Below, one piece after another: positions 388-13,891 of a DNA stretch of 16,675 nt. The translations under genes were made by a program, and so were the position numbers. A model generated the notes under the pieces. That model was given only the letters and a program-made list of their open reading frames with translations. It was not told the DNA's origin and made no database searches. Origin of the DNA: Clostridia bacterium (GTDB lineage Bacteria; Bacillota_A; Clostridia; Christensenellales; Borkfalkiaceae); the NCBI GenBank assembly GCA_017504735.1, contig JAFVQP010000199.1:1-16675 (forward strand), read 5' to 3'. The first letter of the stretch is position 1, and each line of letters begins with the position of its first letter.

Positions 388-586
388 CGGTGAAGTTTTC
401 GCTTTGCGAAAGTGAAGTTTGTTCCAAGTGAAGTTTTGCGTTCCGCAAAGTGAAGTTTGCCTGTCGGCAAGTTGCGGCTGAGGTTTAGTGAATGCACGAA
501 ACCATCTAATAAAGTGTGTGATAAGACACCTTACTGCGTCCAACGTCAGGTTGGAACTTCACTGTGGCTCTGCCACAACTTCACTA
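388..586. repeat. Octamer and mini-hairpin array A, between yicC and gmk
   Basis: On the plus strand GTGAAGTT occurs exactly at 390, 412, 428 and 450, and its inverse AACTTCAC at 555 and 577. The gaps are small hairpins: TTTCGC/GCGAAA (loop TTT), TTG/CAA (loop TTC), TTTGCG/CGCAAA (loop TTC), TTGCC/GGCAA (loop TGTC) and TGTGGC/GCCACA (loop TCT). Start-to-start steps are 22, 16, 22 and, on the inverse side, 22. The centre (471-550) holds GTTGCGGCTG and further short inverted repeats such as GTGT/ACAC and TCCAAC/GTTGGA. The array begins 2 nt after the yicC stop codon and ends before the gmk ribosome binding site. Function unknown. Confidence 0.88.
407..458. repeat. 52-bp core shared exactly with 3610-3661
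   Basis: This part of array A is identical base for base to 3610-3661 in array B. It covers three consecutive octamers and the two hairpin spacers between them. Sequence just outside the block differs. Confidence 0.9.
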
Positions 587-1462
587 TTATTCCAAATTCT
601 GTACTTGCTCGCGGATTTTTTCAATCTCGTTCTTTAATGCAAGCCCTGCGCGCGTAATCGTTACGTCGTTGCTCTTGGAACAGGTCGTGTTCGCTTCGCG
701 GTTAAATTCCTGCACCAAGAAATCGAGCTTTCTACCCACAATCCCCTCTTCCGCAATGCTTCTAAATTGCTCGATATGGGATTTTAATCTCGTCAATTCC
801 TCGTCGATATTGCTCTTGTCGGTGAAAACGGCAACTTCGGTCAACAATCTACCCTCGTCCATCTTCACGTCGGCAAGATATTCCTGCACTTTTGCCGTCA
901 GCTTTTCACGGTATTCCGCCGCCACCAAGGGTGCGCGAGTTGCAATTTCCGCAACCAACCCTTCAATGGTTTGTACCCTTGCAAGCATATCCGCCTTCAA
1001 TTTTTCCCCTTCCACCAAACGCATTTCGTTCAGCTTATCAAGGGCAACGTTGAGGGCAACGTCCAAGGCGTTCGTCATTTCCTCGTCCAAGGAAACGGTA
1101 TCTTCCTGCTTCAACACTTCGGGATAGCGCAACACCGAGGACAAGGTAACGTCGTCGGGCAAATCAGGGAACGCCTCTCTCAAGGCCTTCGCCGCCGCCA
1201 CGTAGGACGCCGCCAAGTTTAAATCGGGCGCAAGCGCGGTTTCTCTCTCACGCTTATCCTTCAAAGAAATGAACACGTCGGCGTGCCCACGCGTTAATTT
1301 CTTGCGGATGGTCGTCCGAATCACGTCCTCATACGCCGCAAAAATGCGCGGTGCCTTGATGGATACGTCCAAATAACGGTTGTTCACCGTCTTAATTTCA
1401 CAGGTCAGCTCTAAGCCGCCTTCTGCATATTCGCCTTTCCCGTAACCGGTCATACTAAGCAT
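587..1462 (-). CDS. yicC: YicC family endoribonuclease
   Basis: A 291-residue member of the YicC family, normal in length (about 290). The family signature SMTGYGKG lies at residues 3-10, and the conserved C-terminal DUF1732 region includes DEELTRLKSHIEQF and GRKLDFLVQEFNREANT. Homologues in Escherichia coli and Bacillus have been reported to have endoribonuclease activity, including a role in turnover of the small RNA RyhB; the substrate here is unknown. The start at 1462 is favoured over the internal Met at residue 4 because AAAGAGGTGAT sits about 8 nt upstream. It is the first gene of a yicC-gmk unit with its own extended -10 promoter. The next gene, gmk, starts 219 nt downstream, beyond an unusual repeat array. 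Confidence 0.95.
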   Translation of the reverse strand: MLSMTGYGKGEYAEGGLELTCEIKTVNNRYLDVSIKAPRIFAAYEDVIRTTIRKKLTRGHADVFISLKDKRERETALAPDLNLAASYVAAAKALREAFPDLPDDVTLSSVLRYPEVLKQEDTVSLDEEMTNALDVALNVALDKLNEMRLVEGEKLKADMLARVQTIEGLVAEIATRAPLVAAEYREKLTAKVQEYLADVKMDEGRLLTEVAVFTDKSNIDEELTRLKSHIEQFRSIAEEGIVGRKLDFLVQEFNREANTTCSKSNDVTITRAGLALKNEIEKIREQVQNLE

Positions 1463-1492
1463 ACGTATATCACCTCTTTTGTTATAGCAAAC

Positions 1493-1521
1493 ATTATAGC
1501 AAACTTTTTCAAAAATTACAA
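1493..1521 (-). promoter_or_regulatory. Sigma-A promoter of yicC-gmk
   Basis: On the minus strand TTGTAA, a 17-bp spacer and TATAAT, with TG one base before the -10 (extended -10). The decamer TTTGCTATAA is repeated immediately downstream, so a second, shifted -10-like element (TATAAC) is also present. The 5' leader is about 25 nt. Confidence 0.8.
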
Positions 1522-1566
1522 GCCCCCGCTGCCATGTTTTTTCAACTTTTTTATTAATTTTATAAT

Positions 1567-1601
1567 AAAATTATAAAAGAGCCGCTTTCTGCGACTCTTT
1601 T
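1567..1601 (-). terminator. Factor-independent terminator of ligA
   Basis: On the minus strand AAAAGAGTCGC and GCGGCTCTTTT pair over 11 bp (one T-G wobble) around the loop AGAAA, followed by an A/T-rich tail with T runs. It begins 16 nt after the ligA stop codon. Confidence 0.85.
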
Positions 1602-1616
1602 GCGTGCGATTTTCCT

Positions 1617-3563
1617 TTAATTTTCTATCATTGCCTTAAATTCTGCTTCGTCAATGATTTTGATGCCCAGCTTTTGCGCCTTGGCAAGCTTACTGCCCGC
1701 CTCTTCCCCTGCCAAAACCAAGGTCGTTTTTGCAGTAACCGACGATTGACAAACGCCGCCGCGTTCCTCAATCAACTTTTGCGCCTCACTCCGCTTGAAC
1801 GAGGACAACGTACCCGTCAAGACAACCGATTGTCCCGAGAAAATACCTTCCTTCTTTTCGTCCGACCATACGGGGGTCACGCCCACTTCGGTTAAAGCGG
1901 TCAACTCCGCAAGGTTGTTTTCGTCTTGGAAGTAGTCCAAAATCGCCTTTGCGGTGATCTCCCCGACGTTTTCCAAGGCAAGCAAATCGTCCAAGGCCGC
2001 CGCCTTTAAATTGTCCATATTTTTAAAGCGTGCCGCAAGATCTTTTGCCGCCACTCTACCCACACCGCCGATGCCAATTGCGTAAATGAACGCATCCATG
2101 GTAGGGGTCTTGCTCTTTTCAATCGCCGTTAAGAGGTTGTTTATCTTCTTATCCTTAAAGCCGTCAAGCTCCGCCAAATCTTCCGCCGTCAAACGGTATA
2201 AATCGGAAAATTTCGACATATTTTTCCGCTGTACAAGCAACTCCGCTGTGCTTTCGGAAAAGCCGTCGATATTCATCGCATTCTTACTTGCATAATGGTC
2301 CAACATCGCCACGATACGAGGGGTGCAAAGTCGATTCGGGCAGAACAAATGCGCCCCATTTTCCACCAAAATGCTACCGCAAGCAGGGCAAAGCGTGGGC
2401 TTTTCCACCTCTACGCTATGGTCAAAATGCTCGGTTGCGCCCAAAATTTCGGGGATAACCTCATTGGAACGGCGCACCAACACGCGTGAACCGATTTTTA
2501 CGCCCTTACGCAAAATATCGCCGTAGTTGTTCAAGGTCGCCCTCGACACCGTCGCGCCGCCAAGCTCTACGGGGTCAAGGAGTGCCAAAGGGGTCAATTT
2601 TCCCGTTCTCCCCACCTGCCAAATTACCTCTTTCAAGAGGGTGGTCACTTCTTCCGCCTCGAACTTATACGCAAGCGCCCAACGAGGGAATTTATCGGTA
2701 AAGCCAAGCTCTTCGCGAAGAAGTGCATCGTTCAATTTAATCACCGCGCCGTCCGTCAACACGTCTAAATTTTTACGCTCGATTTCCACCTCGGCAATCG
2801 CCGCCGCCACCTCTTCGGCGGAGTGGCAAACACGGAAGTAAGGGAACACCTTGAACCCCTCTTGGATAAGGAAGTCATGTGCGTTCGTTTGAGACATGGG
2901 TGCCCCGTCCGAGGTATAATTGACGTCGTAGAAGTAGATGTCGGGCTTGCGCGTTTCGGTCACTTTCGGGTCAAGGTTACGGATTGCGCCAGCCACCGCA
3001 TTGCGCGCGTTTTTCAACGGCTCTGCCGCCGTTTTGTTGTACGCATCGAGTACGGACAAGCGGATTACCGCTTCCCCGCGCACCTCTAAAGTGCCTTGAT
3101 ACGCAATCTTTAAGGGGAAGGAACGGATGGTCAAAACCTGCGCCGTCACATCCTCGCCAATGGTGCCGTTGCCACGGGTTGTCGCGCGGACAAATTGCCC
3201 TTTGTCGTAGGTCAAGCATACGGTCAAGCCGTCAAATTTATATTCCACGGTGTAATCGCAAGACTTGCCTTCGGCAAGTTTTTGCACGCGCGTTAAAAAG
3301 GCGTTCAATTCCTCTGAGGACACCGCCTTATCGAGGCTGAACAAGCGCGCGATATGCGTATGCTTTTCAAAGCCCTTAATCGGCTCGCCCCCCACTCGAC
3401 GGGTCGGGCTGTCGGGATAAACTTCGCCCGTTTCCTCTTCCAAACGGCGGAGTTCATCGTACAAGGCATCGTATTCCTTATCGGAAACGGTAGGGTTGTC
3501 CAGCACGTAATATTCGTGCGCCCATTTGTTGAGTATATCAACCAGTTCTCTTTGTCTGCTCAT
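1617..3563 (-). CDS. ligA: NAD-dependent DNA ligase LigA
   Basis: Seals nicks in duplex DNA using NAD+ during replication and repair. At 648 residues it is close to the usual 650-680. In order: domain Ia with YYVLDNPTVSDKEYDALYDEL (residues 19-39); the adenylation domain with catalytic Lys109 in EYKFDG; an OB fold (about 310-385); a zinc finger with Cys392, Cys395, Cys408 and Cys413; helix-hairpin-helix repeats (about 430-550); and a C-terminal BRCT domain (573-648). The motif usually written RGDGTTGEDVT reads RGNGTIGEDVT here. AAGGAA lies 6 nt before the start. It is the second gene of a pcrA-ligA unit, as in many Bacillota, with no clear promoter in the 230-nt gap, and it ends at a strong terminator. 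Confidence 0.98.
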   Translation of the reverse strand: MSRQRELVDILNKWAHEYYVLDNPTVSDKEYDALYDELRRLEEETGEVYPDSPTRRVGGEPIKGFEKHTHIARLFSLDKAVSSEELNAFLTRVQKLAEGKSCDYTVEYKFDGLTVCLTYDKGQFVRATTRGNGTIGEDVTAQVLTIRSFPLKIAYQGTLEVRGEAVIRLSVLDAYNKTAAEPLKNARNAVAGAIRNLDPKVTETRKPDIYFYDVNYTSDGAPMSQTNAHDFLIQEGFKVFPYFRVCHSAEEVAAAIAEVEIERKNLDVLTDGAVIKLNDALLREELGFTDKFPRWALAYKFEAEEVTTLLKEVIWQVGRTGKLTPLALLDPVELGGATVSRATLNNYGDILRKGVKIGSRVLVRRSNEVIPEILGATEHFDHSVEVEKPTLCPACGSILVENGAHLFCPNRLCTPRIVAMLDHYASKNAMNIDGFSESTAELLVQRKNMSKFSDLYRLTAEDLAELDGFKDKKINNLLTAIEKSKTPTMDAFIYAIGIGGVGRVAAKDLAARFKNMDNLKAAALDDLLALENVGEITAKAILDYFQDENNLAELTALTEVGVTPVWSDEKKEGIFSGQSVVLTGTLSSFKRSEAQKLIEERGGVCQSSVTAKTTLVLAGEEAGSKLAKAQKLGIKIIDEAEFKAMIEN

Positions 3564-3588
3564 AGTGTTCCTTTTTTTACTCCGTAAA

Positions 3589-3793
3589 AAGTTAAGTTTT
3601 CGCCATGGACGAAAGTGAAGTTTGTTCCAAGTGAAGTTTTGCGTTCCGCAAAGTGAAGTTTTTTGCGTTCTGCAAAAAGTTGTGGCTGTTATTTATATTC
3701 GCAATAACTTGCCCAAAGGCAAACTTCACTGGCGTAGCCAACTTCACTGTATCGAAGATACAACTTCACTGTGGCTTTGCCACAACATCACCC
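3589..3793. repeat. Octamer and mini-hairpin array B, between pcrA and ligA
   Basis: On the plus strand GTGAAGTT is exact at 3615, 3631 and 3653 with a variant GTTAAGTT at 3591. The inverse AACTTCAC is exact at 3722, 3740 and 3762 with a variant AACATCAC at 3784. Steps are 24, 16, 22 and 18, 22, 22. Spacer hairpins are TTTCG/CGAAA, TTG/CAA, TTTGCG/CGCAAA, TTTTTGCG/TGCAAAAA (one G-T pair), TGGC/GCCA, TGTATC/GATACA and TGTGGC/GCCACA, mostly with 3-nt loops. The centre (3679-3721) carries GTTGTGGCTG, close to GTTGCGGCTG of array A, plus GTTATT/AATAAC and TTGCC/GGCAA hairpins. The last inverse copy ends 2 nt from the pcrA stop codon. Confidence 0.88.
3610..3661. repeat. 52-bp core shared exactly with 407-458
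   Basis: Second copy of the three-octamer core of array A, about 3.2 kb away in an unrelated gene gap and without a mismatch. Confidence 0.9.
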
Positions 3794-6229
3794 CTATATC
3801 ACCGTCAACGGCGCAAGGCTTGCGGACAACTGCTTAATGCCCAGCCCTTCAAACGCAATATCCACAAACATATTGCTGCCCATGCCACGCACCGCCACGA
3901 TGACACCCACGCCAAATTTCGGGTGCTTTACGCTAACGCCGATTTTATATACGGACAAATCCTTACCGCCCGTCGCAGGTTTCGCCGCTTTGCCTACACC
4001 GCCGTACACAAAACCGCCGCTCTTCTTTTGCGCGTTTTGACCACCGTACGAAGTTGAACCGCCATACGAACCACCGCCGTAGGAGCTTCCACCGCCATAG
4101 CTTGTACCGCCGTAGCTGTTGCCATTCCACGGCGTACGGGTGATGGTAGAGCTTTGTTTGGGGATATTGCTATACCCGCCGTAGCTACCGCCGAAACTGT
4201 TTCTTCTGCCACCGTAATCATCGTTCGACGCATACCTGCCCCCACCGTATGCCGAATTTCCGTAGCTGTCGGGGTCGTCCCAATCGCTATACCCACGGGG
4301 CATAGGACGGGTTTCTTGGGGCAGTTCTATCACCGAAGAAAGTTCCTTTAAGAAACGCGAACGCATCGTCGGTTCACGCTTACCATAAAGGTATCTGCTC
4401 TTTGACCTTGTTAAGTACAAACGCTCCTTCGCACGTGTAATCGCTACGTACATCAAACGGCGTTCTTCTTCCATATCGTCGTCGTTGTTCACCGCACGCG
4501 ATACGGGTAAAATGTTTTCTTCCAAACCGCAAATGAACACGCACTTAAACTCTAACCCCTTTACCGCGTGTACGGTGGCAAGGGTAACGTAGTTACCATC
4601 GTCCATTTCATCCGTGTCCGAAGACAGGGTGACTTGGTTGAGATAATCGGTCAAGGTGGCGGTCGGGTTTAAACGGCTGTATTCCTCTACCGAGTTGATA
4701 AATTCTTCAATGTTCGCGCGTTTGTTGATACTTTCGTCGGAATCGTCCGCGTATGCTTCACGCATTTTCGTGTCGTCAATAATCTTTTTCACCAGCTCGT
4801 TGACGGGCAGTTCTTGGCTGTCAATGATCCACGCTTTTACCAAATCGCGGAAATCAATCAGCTTTTGACGGGTACCTGCCGTGAAGCCCAACTCGTTGAT
4901 GTCAATGAGGGCATCATACACCGAGGTTTCCGTTTCAAAGGCGTAATTTTGCAAGGTTTCCACCGTTTTCGCGCCGATACCACGCTTCGGGAAGTTGATG
5001 ATACGCACCGCCGCTTCGCTGTCGAACGGGTTGTTGATCAGGCGCAAATAAGCAAGCAAATCCTTGATTTCCTTACGTTCGAAGAACTTGAAACCGCCGA
5101 AGACCTTATACGAGATACCGTCCCCCGTGAACTCTTGTTCGAATGCTCGTGTGAGGGCGTTAAGTCGCATCAAAATGGCAAAATCGGAGAAGGAATACCC
5201 TTGGCGCACAAGCCCTGCGATGGTGTGCGCGATAAATCTCGCCTCGCCGCTTTCCTCGTCCGCTTCGTGCACTTTTACAGGCGCGCCTTCCTCGTTTTCC
5301 GTCCAAAGCTGTTTGTCCTTGCGCTTGCCGTTGTAACGGATTGCCGTGTTGGCAAGTTTTAAGATATTCTTTGTAGAACGGTAGTTGCGTTCGAGCTTGA
5401 ACACGCGCGCATTTTTAAAATCCTTCTCAAAGTGTAAAATATTTTCAATCTTCGCACCGCGCCAGCCGTAAATCGACTGGTCGTCGTCCCCTACCACAAA
5501 CAAGTTACCGTGAACGGAAGCAAGCAGTTTTATGATTTCATACTGCACTTCGTTGGTATCCTGGAACTCGTCCACGAGAATGTAACGGAAGCGTCCGCTC
5601 AAATACTCGCGTACTTCCTTTTCCTTGCGCAAAAGGTTGCGCGTTTCGTTTAAGAGGTCGTCAAAGTCGAGCGCATTGTTTTCACGCAGGTGCTTTTGGT
5701 AGCGCGCGTACACTTTTACAATATCGTCAATATCACGTTCCCCTGCGTATTCCTCACCGTAACGTTCGGGGTCAAGCCCCAACATTTTCGCGTTCGCAAT
5801 GTGCCATTTTACGTTTTTGAGGAGCTTTTCATCGTCAAAATCACATTCCTGGAAGGATTTTTTCACGATGTTGTTGCGTTCCACTTCGCTGTAAATGGAG
5901 AAGTTGGGCTGAATCCCTACTTCTTCGGGATACATACGCAAAATGCGCACGCACATGCTGTGGATGGTGCAAACCCACGAACGGGAAACGTCCACGATAC
6001 GGCTTAAACGCTCTTTCATTTCGTTTGCCGCCTTGTTGGTGAAGGTGATGGACAAAATCGCATCCGCAGGCACCCCAAGTTCCTCTACAATGTAAGCAAT
6101 ACGCGAGGTTAAAACGCGGGTTTTACCGCTGCCTGCGCCTGCCAAAACCAATACGGGGCCTTCCGTTTGTAATACAGGTTTGATTTGTTCGTCATTTAAT
6201 TGTTCTAAAATATCATCAATGTGTGTCAT
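3794..6229 (-). CDS. pcrA: ATP-dependent DNA helicase PcrA (UvrD/Rep family)
   Basis: Superfamily 1A 3'-5' helicase used in repair, recombination control and transcription-linked repair. The product is 811 residues if it starts at 6229, where MTHIDDILEQLN aligns with the usual PcrA N-terminus. Motifs: Q-motif near residues 10-18, Walker A GAGSGKT (31-37), LVDEFQDTN (motif II), GDDDQSIYGWRGA (motif III), NYRST (motif IV) and VKGLEF with the usual C-terminal motifs after it. From about 645 to 745 there is a long Gly/Tyr/Ser-rich linker with many SYGG units. The last 51 residues match the Tudor-like C-terminal domain (VKHPKFGVGVIV) that contacts RNA polymerase in other PcrA/UvrD proteins. There is no Shine-Dalgarno sequence and the -10 box lies 9 nt before the ATG. 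It heads a pcrA-ligA unit. Confidence 0.97.
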   Translation of the reverse strand: MTHIDDILEQLNDEQIKPVLQTEGPVLVLAGAGSGKTRVLTSRIAYIVEELGVPADAILSITFTNKAANEMKERLSRIVDVSRSWVCTIHSMCVRILRMYPEEVGIQPNFSIYSEVERNNIVKKSFQECDFDDEKLLKNVKWHIANAKMLGLDPERYGEEYAGERDIDDIVKVYARYQKHLRENNALDFDDLLNETRNLLRKEKEVREYLSGRFRYILVDEFQDTNEVQYEIIKLLASVHGNLFVVGDDDQSIYGWRGAKIENILHFEKDFKNARVFKLERNYRSTKNILKLANTAIRYNGKRKDKQLWTENEEGAPVKVHEADEESGEARFIAHTIAGLVRQGYSFSDFAILMRLNALTRAFEQEFTGDGISYKVFGGFKFFERKEIKDLLAYLRLINNPFDSEAAVRIINFPKRGIGAKTVETLQNYAFETETSVYDALIDINELGFTAGTRQKLIDFRDLVKAWIIDSQELPVNELVKKIIDDTKMREAYADDSDESINKRANIEEFINSVEEYSRLNPTATLTDYLNQVTLSSDTDEMDDGNYVTLATVHAVKGLEFKCVFICGLEENILPVSRAVNNDDDMEEERRLMYVAITRAKERLYLTRSKSRYLYGKREPTMRSRFLKELSSVIELPQETRPMPRGYSDWDDPDSYGNSAYGGGRYASNDDYGGRRNSFGGSYGGYSNIPKQSSTITRTPWNGNSYGGTSYGGGSSYGGGSYGGSTSYGGQNAQKKSGGFVYGGVGKAAKPATGGKDLSVYKIGVSVKHPKFGVGVIVAVRGMGSNMFVDIAFEGLGIKQLSASLAPLTVI

Positions 6230-7810: not shown

Positions 7811-7978
7811 TAGTGAAGTTTTCCGCAAGCGGAAAGTGAAGTTTTGATACAGCACAAAACTGTAAACAACCGCAAAGCGGTTAAGGCGCAAGCATTCGCT
7901 TGCTTTTGGGTGGGCTACCTTCTTTGCGAGGGCTCTGCCCTCAACCTCCCGCAAGGGGCAATGCCCCTTGACCCTAAA
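7811..7978. repeat. Repeat region C: two octamers and a GC-rich multi-hairpin block
   Basis: GTGAAGTT occurs at 7813 and 7836 (step 23) around the hairpin TTTCCG/CGGAAA. No inverse octamers follow. After TGATACAG (7845-7852) comes a run of inverted repeats: AACCGC/GCGGTT (loop AAA), GCAAGC/GCTTGC (loop ATTC), GAGGGC/GCCCTC (loop TCT) and AAGGGGCA/TGCCCCTT (1-nt centre). TGATACAG recurs at 7979-7986, so the hairpin block of about 126 bp is flanked by 8-bp direct repeats. It has no terminal inverted repeats and no gene. It lies in the 309-nt gap between the superoxide reductase and flavorubredoxin genes. Confidence 0.8.
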
Positions 7979-8096
7979 TGATACAGTACGCAATCCGTCG
8001 TAAGTGCATAGATGCGAGCAGTTCAAGACGGAGCGGGGGAGCTTACAAGTAGTAAGTGACCGAGCGACAACGCCGAAATGCGAAGTATATATGCGC
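7979..8096. repeat. Structured intergenic block abutting the superoxide reductase stop codon
   Basis: Non-coding and rich in short inverted repeats: CCGTC/GACGG (7995 and 8027) enclosing GCAT/ATGC, and CTTAC/GTAAG (8042-8056). It runs directly into the stop codon at 8097-8099. Its composition differs from the nearby coding DNA. It looks like a dispersed repetitive element, but there is no second copy in this window to prove it. No promoter or terminator is visible. Confidence 0.45.
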
Positions 8097-12373: not shown

Positions 12374-13891
12374 TTATGCGTTTTTCGTCGGGAACCCGAA
12401 GGCTACGTTTTCAAACATGAATGAGCCATCCTTAGAGGAAACATTAGACGGAATCTCAAACCTGATACCGTAAGCCACAAGACCGTCCACCATCAAATCC
12501 GAAATCTTAATCGTTACTCTATACGCTTCAGTCTCCGTAGGAGTCTCTGTATAGGGCATATCGTCATCCGTATTCCCTTTATACATATTGTATACGGGAT
12601 ACAAGTCACTACCGTTCTTCACCGCATAGAAAGAGAAGGATACTGTTTCTACACCATACGCATGCAAGTTTGCGAAGAAGTCTTTTGATAAGGTAACCTC
12701 TTGGTCCTTACTGGGACTAGTCGTGTACAAGTTAATACCCGTCGGCTTACTAGTCTCATCATTTGGATCTACTCGTTGAGTTTCCGCCGTCCAAGAACCG
12801 CTAGACATATTTATCCCAAAGTTATTTACCACCTTTTGGGGATCATCTTCCAAGAATTCTTCCAAAACCGTATCTAAGGTCTTATCCTTATCTTCCTCGG
12901 AAATATCCGCAGCCTTTACGTAGTACATATGCAAGGTTTGCATACCTGCCGCATAAACAAGACCCGTTTGCGTCTTTTCCGAGATGGCTACGTCAAAGAT
13001 GAAGTCCATTCCATTCAACGCATCAACCATTGGTTTCGCAATGGGATATGCACTTACTTCCGAGTTGAGCTGTGCATACAAGGATTGCGTTTCCGTATGC
13101 AGCGTGGTCATTTCACTGCTCCCTTCCGTAGTTGCCTGCAAGTAATGGTGCTGTACCGTATAACGATAGGTATATTTGGTAAAACGATCCGTTTGCGCAA
13201 ATACGTCAATGTATTTTTCCTGCAAAACGTCTGCATTGCTCTTTTCTTCCTCCACCGCACGTTGCGCCACGTAATAGATACAACGGGTGTTGTTCGCCAC
13301 GTTGCCTTCATAATAAGGAGCGAACTGATAGGTGTAACCCGTTACCTCACCGTTTTCATTCGTTTGAGGAATTGCAACATACACTCTGCCGATAAAGGAG
13401 CGGGTGAAGTTGGATACTGCGATATTTGTGATAGAGCCTGCAATTTCGACGTTTGCATCCTCGTCAATGTTCTCGCAAGCCGCATTTGCTATGTGCAACA
13501 TGGAGATTTTTCCATTAGACGTTTGCGTTTCATTGCTAAAATAAAAGCTAGGATTTGCGCCAAATACCGTTTCTTCGTTGATTTCTACCGTTTTTGCCAA
13601 GTCTTTTGCAACAATAACTGCGCCGAACTTTGCGCCTGCTTCTTTCAAAGCGGTATATTCCGTTTCGCTGATTTCCGCGCTAAAACGCAAGCCGTTGTTT
13701 TCTACCACGTTACCTTCCGCATCCGTCAACGTCTTGATACGTGCCGCCGCACCGTTTTCCATCTTGAAGCTTTCCGTGCTAGGCACCGTCGCTGCGTTTG
13801 CAAGTGTCAAATTATGCACGCCTAACGCAACGCTAGCCGTTGCAAGTAAGGAAAGCGCCGCAATCATCATGTTATGTAACTTTTTCATCAT
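12374..13891 (-). CDS. Secreted protein of unknown function with a C-terminal beta-sandwich-like region
   Basis: A 505-residue exported protein that I do not recognise. A signal peptide (basic MMKKLH, a hydrophobic core at about 8-24, probable cleavage after ANA at residue 33) is followed by a region with NNGLRFSAEIS, then a Tyr- and acid-rich middle, and a C-terminal part (about 354-505) of alternating strands ending in SFMFENVAFGF. That end resembles the jelly-roll folds of carbohydrate-binding modules, but this is only an impression. There is no lipobox, LPXTG motif or C-terminal membrane segment, so release is likely. There are two adjacent ATGs: AAGGAGG lies 4 nt before the first (13891) and 7 nt before the second (13888), which may be the real start. 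It follows a small acidic ORF by 12 nt. Confidence 0.85.
   Translation of the reverse strand: MMKKLHNMMIAALSLLATASVALGVHNLTLANAATVPSTESFKMENGAAARIKTLTDAEGNVVENNGLRFSAEISETEYTALKEAGAKFGAVIVAKDLAKTVEINEETVFGANPSFYFSNETQTSNGKISMLHIANAACENIDEDANVEIAGSITNIAVSNFTRSFIGRVYVAIPQTNENGEVTGYTYQFAPYYEGNVANNTRCIYYVAQRAVEEEKSNADVLQEKYIDVFAQTDRFTKYTYRYTVQHHYLQATTEGSSEMTTLHTETQSLYAQLNSEVSAYPIAKPMVDALNGMDFIFDVAISEKTQTGLVYAAGMQTLHMYYVKAADISEEDKDKTLDTVLEEFLEDDPQKVVNNFGINMSSGSWTAETQRVDPNDETSKPTGINLYTTSPSKDQEVTLSKDFFANLHAYGVETVSFSFYAVKNGSDLYPVYNMYKGNTDDDMPYTETPTETEAYRVTIKISDLMVDGLVAYGIRFEIPSNVSSKDGSFMFENVAFGFPTKNA

Follow-up and report, generated by a model that had tools for sequence, protein, structure and literature searches.

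The repeat arrays analysed here lie in intergenic gaps of a 16,675-nt stretch of DNA from a Clostridia bacterium (contig JAFVQP010000199.1; hereafter the window). Among described systems they come closest to the intervening sequences (IVSs) of 23S rRNA, insertions in an rRNA gene whose complementary ends form a stem and which can carry an open reading frame (ORF) for an S23p/IVP protein of family PF05635. In Coxiella, according to PMC4990558, the IVS has three heptamers (two in some strains) and a degenerate one upstream of the IVP ORF, together with a terminal inverted repeat, a 28-bp terminal stem being given for a strain with one heptamer fewer; the same source describes a Xanthomonas relative of IVP as a homopentamer. 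PF05635 is also a relative, by sequence and structure, of Avd of diversity-generating retroelements, as stated in PMC10053308. Repetitive extragenic palindromes and their inverted doublets (REP/REPIN), associated with RAYT transposases, resemble the arrays in being abundant, intergenic, arranged in inverted pairs and built of a word plus a hairpin. In a CRISPR array, a repeat of about 20-40 nt alternates with unique, non-palindromic spacers, unlike the arrays here, which have a 7-nt word and self-complementary spacers.

The arrays share with IVSs both the protein family and the complementary ends. An IVP ORF lies between the left and right array halves in two genomes (G001, locus L106/L335, and G019, L131) and, judged by eye, in L315, L317, L318 and L319, with the core edge clear on both sides of the ORF in L315, L318 and L319; at other IVP loci the array is one-sided. 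Words and inverted words occupy the two ends of the element and pair with each other in the predicted fold of window positions 3575-3795. Rfam searches at gathering level gave no match in the window or in nine IVP loci (L341-L346, L106, L318 and L131), which are thus not inserted in an rRNA gene. Unlike IVSs, the copies described here lie between protein genes, mostly lack an ORF, reach 189 word pairs per genome and are spaced by hairpins. The likeness of the 28-bp Coxiella stem to four words of 7 nt is our own reading and may be chance. We consider it likely that the arrays are non-coding copies of a class of small palindromic, probably mobile elements, the full form of which has an IVP gene between or beside the array halves. 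The plan of the element is commonly four words, a core and four inverted words. ORF-less elements, among them the window copies, look like internal-deletion copies because the core edges are kept. In this they recall miniature inverted-repeat transposable elements, short non-coding copies that likewise resemble internal-deletion derivatives of a coding element; in contrast to these, no transposase is linked to the arrays, the ends consist of word arrays and not of one fixed inverted repeat, and no target duplication was found.

Within the window the octamer GTGAAGTT occurs 15 times, whereas shuffled versions average 0.60 copies and never exceed 4. The octamer-hairpin arrays noted in a preliminary description of this DNA are therefore real, although its count of fourteen octamers applies to the three gaps and not to the whole window, the fifteenth copy lying within a coding sequence at 13404. 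Its remark that copies are most often 22 nt apart was borne out (five of nine within-run start-to-start distances, the remainder being 16, 16, 18 and 23), and its statement that it knew of no named element with this plan agrees with the empty Rfam search of the window. The invariance that it ascribed to the octamer needs two amendments. The repeat unit consists of the heptamer GTGAAGT and a self-pairing spacer with T first and A last, so that the eighth octamer base belongs to the hairpin. Moreover, an array half has essentially one word, and words vary between arrays, between species and sometimes between halves. Both this variation and the tie of the word to a protein family go beyond the earlier account.

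The protein emerged from a clustering of array-neighbouring genes as a 117-residue product encoded inside the element in two genomes. It matches 23S_rRNA_IVP (PF05635; E 2e-21 to 9e-27 for three proteins), TIGR02436 'four helix bundle protein' (E 4e-28 for one) and 2rld, a solved structure with five chains. At least two word-hairpin-word units lay within 400 nt at 63 of 118 Clostridial IVP loci (20/28, 13/30 and 30/60), compared with 3 of 200 random places (Fisher p 1e-29, a value that treats the loci as independent, which they are not fully). Any unit at all was found in the flanks of 22/28 IVP loci, 8/26 LigA loci, 20/200 random places and 4/26 loci of Y1_Tnp, the control family. This test was run with 6- to 8-mer words, 6-mers alone being inadequate because the seventh word base breaks the abutting stem. 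PF05635 occurs in 21 of 57 genomes of the nearest genus and, at E up to 0.001, in 106 of 396 genomes drawn from the order of G001. Copy number follows the cognate protein for GTGAA[GT]T, since all four genus genomes with an IVP labelled GTGAAGT or GTGAATT belong to the 17, out of 57, that have 20 or more GTGAADT pairs (Fisher p 0.006, with the same reservation). It does so partly for GCGATAT, where three of three cognate genomes are in the top six, one of them mostly through its own element; the numbers for GTTATAT are small.

These associations bear on whether the arrays are REP/REPIN-like elements moved by a RAYT (Y1 HUH) transposase that recognises a short word and a hairpin. The resemblance extends to many intergenic copies that are few in divergent gaps (9/105), and some array-rich genomes (G054, G074, G015 and G089) have a match to PF01797. 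Others (G001, G017, G056, G057 and G071) have none, and units stand beside only the four Y1_Tnp matches given above; a RAYT/Y1 partner was rejected on these two counts. The arrays further differ from REP/REPIN in having commonly four words per arm, a four-helix-bundle partner and stems that vary freely between copies, unlike those of REPs, with 523 distinct spacers among 733. We regard such a transposase as a highly improbable explanation.

The correspondence between protein and word was examined in 115 IVPs, namely 114 from the 118 PF05635 loci and that of L131, found through its arrays; L333, L345, L358 and L379 had no usable IVP ORF. A word could be called at 52 of the 115. The 19 words can be placed on the IVP tree with 22 changes, against a mean of 40.1 and a minimum of 37 in 200 shuffles; clades join same-word proteins from inside and outside the genus, and the two IVPs of G001 have two different words. 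A scan of alignment columns (L335 numbering) related residue 75 to base 5 (Q with A, E with T), residue 110 to base 6 (G with A; S, N, C or D with T) and residue 14 to base 1 (S or K with G; N or D with A). This code was fixed in writing before 40 unused IVP loci were fetched and scored. Fourteen of these had a callable word, and the code was correct in 12/12 cases for base 5, 14/14 for base 6 and 11/13 for base 1; one test locus, L528, has a combination rare in the training set (ATGATAT, 1/52). On a tree built without the code columns, independent pairs on supported branches went as predicted in 4.0, 3.9 and 3.8 of 4 cases on average, with none opposite. The word is thus associated with the IVP, and individual residues with individual bases.

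Counts in relatives of the window's genome showed how far the arrays spread. A 31-base pattern hit at least 118 stretches in named genomes, mostly metagenome-assembled genomes of Clostridia from animal guts. Among the matches listed, numbering 130, all six stem pairs are Watson-Crick in 74 and at least five in 102; 13 matches in 11 other records (Bacteroidota, Sulfurimonas, Treponema, an archaeon, Paenibacillus, Sedimentibacter and an actinobacterium), examined separately, never exceed four. Genome-wide counting, which the preliminary description had proposed, gave strong enrichment in all of 26 genomes, each reached through a pattern locus, with 1 to 149 GTGAAGT pairs per genome and 0 or 1 for the reversed control. 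Across 57 species of the nearest genus, GTGAA[AGT]T pairs range patchily from 0 to 189 per genome (reversed control 0 to 6). A complete 4+4 element contributes at most about six pairs, from which the richest genomes are estimated to contain dozens of elements. A scan that assumed no particular word (any 7-mer, then a paired spacer, then that 7-mer again) was run on stretches of eight genomes, the majority chosen without regard to arrays. It returned few words: GTGAAGT, GTGAATT, GTGAAAT, ATGAATT, GTGATAT, GCGATAT and some rare others. Almost nothing was found in shuffled sequence, and no word at all in three of the eight genomes.

The arrays in relatives keep the same anatomy (counts of runs include overlapping loci). 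Runs of four words are the most frequent (128 of 294 runs with at least two words), and neighbouring runs less than 150 bp apart are oriented +- in 72 cases, ++ in 5, -- in 3 and -+ in 1. The closing pair of the hairpin tracks the word, being T-A for GTGAAGT (432/436) and G-C for GTGAATT (60/64) and ATGAATT (22/23), less so for GTGAAAT (17 G-C, 9 T-A) and not at all for GCGATAT. The pcrA-ligA gap holds same-plan elements in the window, G054 and G074, with differing words and hairpins, and in G056 the gap between the two genes that flank array 3 of the window holds a whole 4+4 element with the word GTGAATT.

Several individual arrays deserve mention. In G054 (L213 12717-12929) the TGTGGC and TGTATC hairpins stand in the same order as in window positions 3709-3791, with the word GTGAAAT and not GTGAAGT; here the words seem to have changed jointly while these stems stayed. 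At L016 2410-3032 about 20 GTGATAT words with three hairpins in repeating order lie beside a GTGAAGT array, as if grown by tandem duplication. Another tandem growth is seen at L318 1100-1520, where a GTGAATT array of nine hairpins, two kinds alternating, adjoins the IVP gene. G074 (L223; L225 18905-19533) has GCGATAT elements inside outer GTGAATT or GTGAAAT words, as if by nested insertion. GTGAAGT clusters with non-hairpin spacers occur in L140, L053, L070, L086, L092 and L098 (Lachnospiraceae/Butyrivibrio-type), and PF05635 was not found in two such Lachnospiraceae genomes (G492 and G493). A viral origin was set aside after a pattern scan of viral contigs gave eight stretches, by eye none with a hairpin spacer.

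Of 733 between-word spacers, 503 pair over their full length around a 3- or 4-nt loop, as do 305 of the 523 different spacer sequences; in shuffled spacers the share is 0.6%. The full pairing of stems in the preliminary description accordingly holds for most spacers, one window spacer (TTTCG..CGAAA) being imperfect; its mostly 3-nt loops were found in 387 of 596 units. In 593 comparisons of distinct spacers that differ at one stem pair, 374 had both sides changed and were still paired, 157 had one side changed and 62 had both changed and were unpaired; these are all pairwise, non-independent comparisons, in which two perfect hairpins necessarily fall in the compensated class. Pairing is thus largely kept, in support of the earlier suggestion of a kept structure or a hairpin-making mechanism. 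One form of the latter is that hairpins are kept by mutation alone, with template switching copying arm onto arm and the words being leftover repeats. Stems that differ widely and yet mostly pair would fit this, as would the tandem expansions of about 20 words in L016 and of L318. Mutation alone leaves unexplained the single word per array, the 4+4 plan, the core, the IVP association, the residue code and the strand bias of loops and wobbles described below, and we judge it improbable, though template switching may contribute to the hairpins.

Both long window gaps fold better as RNA than all of 200 shuffles (z -4.50 and -4.63), and 3575-3795 folded as DNA also beats its shuffles (z -5.95). 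Folding energy was dropped as a discriminator between DNA and RNA, since both fold well. The minimum-energy folds of 3575-3795, that of RNA included, pair words with inverted words and let most hairpins protrude. These folds raise the possibility of an RNA element, in which a fishbone transcript would be cut by RNase III, as in a 23S IVS, and bound by IVP, the element spreading through RNA and reverse transcriptase as the kinship with Avd suggests. PMC4990558 reports RNase III excision of an IVS that has heptamers and a 28-bp terminal stem, and PF05635 resembles Avd (PMC10053308). In addition, among 95 loci there are 65 tandem gaps, and in 55 of these the IVP gene runs in the direction of both its neighbours; orientation was judged from the IVP gene because the two ends of the core resemble each other.

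The loops and wobbles of the hairpins speak against RNA. On the word strand, loops are mostly C(TNY)G, which the opposite strand reads as C(GNA)G or C(ANA)G; among 204 distinct perfect odd-length spacers, 132 have a TNY loop and 181 a C-G closing pair. Single G.T mismatches over all distinct spacers number 36 on the anti-word strand and 18 on the word strand (p 0.02). The strand test used IVP loci, whose transcribed strand is known. With the word on the sense strand the loops were TNY in 55 cases, RNA (R, purine) in 5 and other in 9; with the word on the antisense strand they were TNY in 6, RNA in 42 and other in 13. Wobbles at these loci fell on the anti-word strand in 16 cases and on the word strand in 3. 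DNA hairpins are favoured because the loop and wobble signatures follow the word strand, whichever strand is transcribed. GNA loops, as in d(C-GNA-G) mini-hairpins, are unusually stable in DNA, and hairpin extrusion occurs in phage N4 promoters. From these sequence signatures we lean away from RNA and towards DNA hairpins on the anti-word strand, formed where the DNA is single-stranded or negatively supercoiled. The dominance of 3-nt loops points the same way, and no reverse transcriptase was linked to the elements, no search aimed at one having been made. An RNA element is in our view possible but doubtful.

In the mechanism that we propose, the IVP, a pentamer in solved relatives, would recognise the repeated word, the spacers would fold out as mini-hairpins and four words would act as one tandem site; the protein would help the element to spread, and ORF-less copies would depend on an IVP in trans. 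Alternatively, IVP and its word arrays could be host regulators, for instance of mRNA processing or 3' ends, and not a mobile element. Some elements begin within a few bases of a stop codon, few are in divergent gaps (35 convergent, 61 tandem and 9 divergent among 105 clusters, with 3 more inside an ORF call), and the same gaps, pcrA-ligA and that next to def, are used in several species. Host regulation accounts poorly for a copy number that is patchy within one genus (0 to 189 pairs), for nested copies and tandem duplicates, and for an IVP present in only 21 of 57 species; we think it unlikely.

Several observations weigh against the proposal of an IVP-dependent mobile element. Neither a target duplication nor a precise empty site was found, and no junction of an inserted copy could be resolved. 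Inverted ends are present, but the pcrA-ligA gaps with and without an element have diverged too far to show a duplication; mobility is accordingly suggested by scattered related copies and patchy presence. We know of no catalytic activity of IVP, and the co-directionality of its gene could also speak for a role in RNA. Several array-rich genomes, including G030, G056, G074, G017 and G071, gave no PF05635 match, in assemblies of unstated completeness. Neither a called word nor inverted 6-mers accompany 26 of the 115 Clostridial IVPs, and 26 of the 40 test places had no word. For GCGATAT and GTTATAT, the genomes with the cognate protein (G053, G050 and G059) have few copies apart from the IVP element itself; G073 has only 5 GTGAADT pairs, its IVP label being tied between ATGAATT and GTGAATT; and halves can differ in word in G074 (GTGAATT left, GTGAAAT right). 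As to the code, it was picked from a scan of many columns. The word caller required an R-Y-K-A start, which constrained base 4 fully and bases 1-3 in part and left bases 5 to 7 free. The test loci fall into clades that also contain training loci, and each code site is backed by about four independent switches (p 0.125 each), so that none is significant alone.

Arrays at IVP genes are also seen outside Clostridia. In one Bacteroidota family 59 of 121 genomes have an IVP protein (E up to 0.001). A 6-mer and its reverse complement in opposite flanks, with a total of at least 5, were found at 32 of 52 Bacteroidota IVP loci and in 29 of 385 random flank pairs (54 loci, less one without an IVP match and one without a flank; L444 and L447 are the same gene, both counted). 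In the 24 loci with a total of at least 6, each side most often has four copies (12 and 10). These arrays are without hairpins: word-hairpin units were absent from 22 of 25 loci (L431-L455), and three had AT-rich or single ones. This suggests that the Clostridial hairpins fold away so that the words lie side by side. In L431-L484 intergenic runs, for example of AGTTAAGG or AATTCATA repeats, are inverted word arrays that flank IVP genes.

With some reserve, we incline to a broader proposal, in which PF05635 proteins would be widespread word readers with a residue-to-base code, each subfamily owning a mobile DNA element of four words, an optional gene and four inverted words. Clostridial words would be spaced by strand-specific DNA mini-hairpins, and rRNA IVSs, with much unexplained intergenic repeat DNA of Bacteroidota and Clostridia, would be members or fossils of the same class. 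In the open-access papers searched, neither word arrays beside IVP genes outside rRNA nor a word code turned up. A cognate word and a predictive code make the function of this long-unexplained family directly testable and offer an origin for abundant intergenic repeats. The protein is small, and a few of its residues could allow its sequence preference to be read and perhaps altered. Spacers that must fold but need not keep any fixed sequence are, to our knowledge, a new design principle for a repeat element.

The features of the three window arrays are collected in Table 1. Arrays 1 and 2 are head-to-head, with words on the plus strand, a core and then inverted words, and sit between co-directional genes (named from their ORFs); the sense strand of the element was taken as minus, matching these genes. 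Array 1 has 4+2 words, array 2 has 4+4 including two degenerate words, and array 3 has 2. The core edge in arrays 1 and 2 is GTTGTGG or GTTGCGG. Spacers in the window are 9 to 19 nt long and self-complementary around a mostly 3-nt loop; even the short 9-nt spacer is a hairpin, with 3 bp and a loop of 3 nt. This short hairpin, the head-to-head order and the core had escaped the preliminary description.

Table 1. Features of the word-hairpin arrays in the window
Feature	Position	Strand	Context
Array 1, four words, core with extra module, two remaining inverted words	388..586	-	between gmk and yicC
Word GTGAAGT	390..396	+	array 1
Hairpin TTTCGC-ttt-GCGAAA	397..411	.	array 1
Word GTGAAGT	412..418	+	array 1
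Hairpin TTG-ttc-CAA	419..427	.	array 1
Word GTGAAGT	428..434	+	array 1
Hairpin TTTGCG-ttc-CGCAAA	435..449	.	array 1
Word GTGAAGT	450..456	+	array 1
Core-adjoining hairpin TTGCC-tgtc-GGCAA	457..470	.	array 1
Core, GTTGCGGCTG at start on +; second module (GGACGCAGTAAGGTGT... on minus) also in G054 element	471..555	-	array 1
Inverted word ACTTCAC	556..562	-	array 1
Hairpin TGTGGC-tct-GCCACA	563..577	.	array 1
Inverted word ACTTCAC	578..584	-	array 1
Array 2, 4+4 words with core	3591..3791	-	between ligA and pcrA
Degenerate word GTTAAGT	3591..3597	+	array 2
Imperfect hairpin TTTCG...CGAAA	3598..3614	.	array 2
Word GTGAAGT	3615..3621	+	array 2
Hairpin TTG-ttc-CAA	3622..3630	.	array 2
Word GTGAAGT	3631..3637	+	array 2
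Hairpin TTTGCG-ttc-CGCAAA	3638..3652	.	array 2
Word GTGAAGT	3653..3659	+	array 2
Core-adjoining hairpin TTTTTGCG...TGCAAAAA	3660..3678	.	array 2
Core GTTGTGGCTGTTATTTATATTCGCAATAAC	3679..3708	-	array 2
Hairpin TTGCC-caaa-GGCAA	3709..3722	.	array 2
Inverted word ACTTCAC	3723..3729	-	array 2
Hairpin TGGC-gta-GCCA	3730..3740	.	array 2
Inverted word ACTTCAC	3741..3747	-	array 2
Hairpin TGTATC-gaa-GATACA	3748..3762	.	array 2
Inverted word ACTTCAC	3763..3769	-	array 2
Hairpin TGTGGC-ttt-GCCACA	3770..3784	.	array 2
Degenerate inverted word ACATCAC	3785..3791	-	array 2
Array 3, remnant: word, hairpin TTTCCG-caag-CGGAAA, word	7813..7842	.	

The second module of array 1 (GGA-N-GCAGTAAGGTGT ... TTTCGNGCATTCAC, within 471-555) recurs in the G054 pcrA-ligA element (L213 4545-4943). 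After array 3, window positions 7846-7990 hold more hairpins (CCGCAAAGCGG, GCAAGC..GCTTGC, GAGGGC..GCCCTC and AAGGGGC..GCCCCTT) with other linkers, possibly a different repeat family. Further on, GATGCGAGCAGTTCAAG is common to window positions 7997-8096 and, on the other strand, to L203 upstream of ligA, with other similar sequence next to it, and is perhaps another dispersed repeat.

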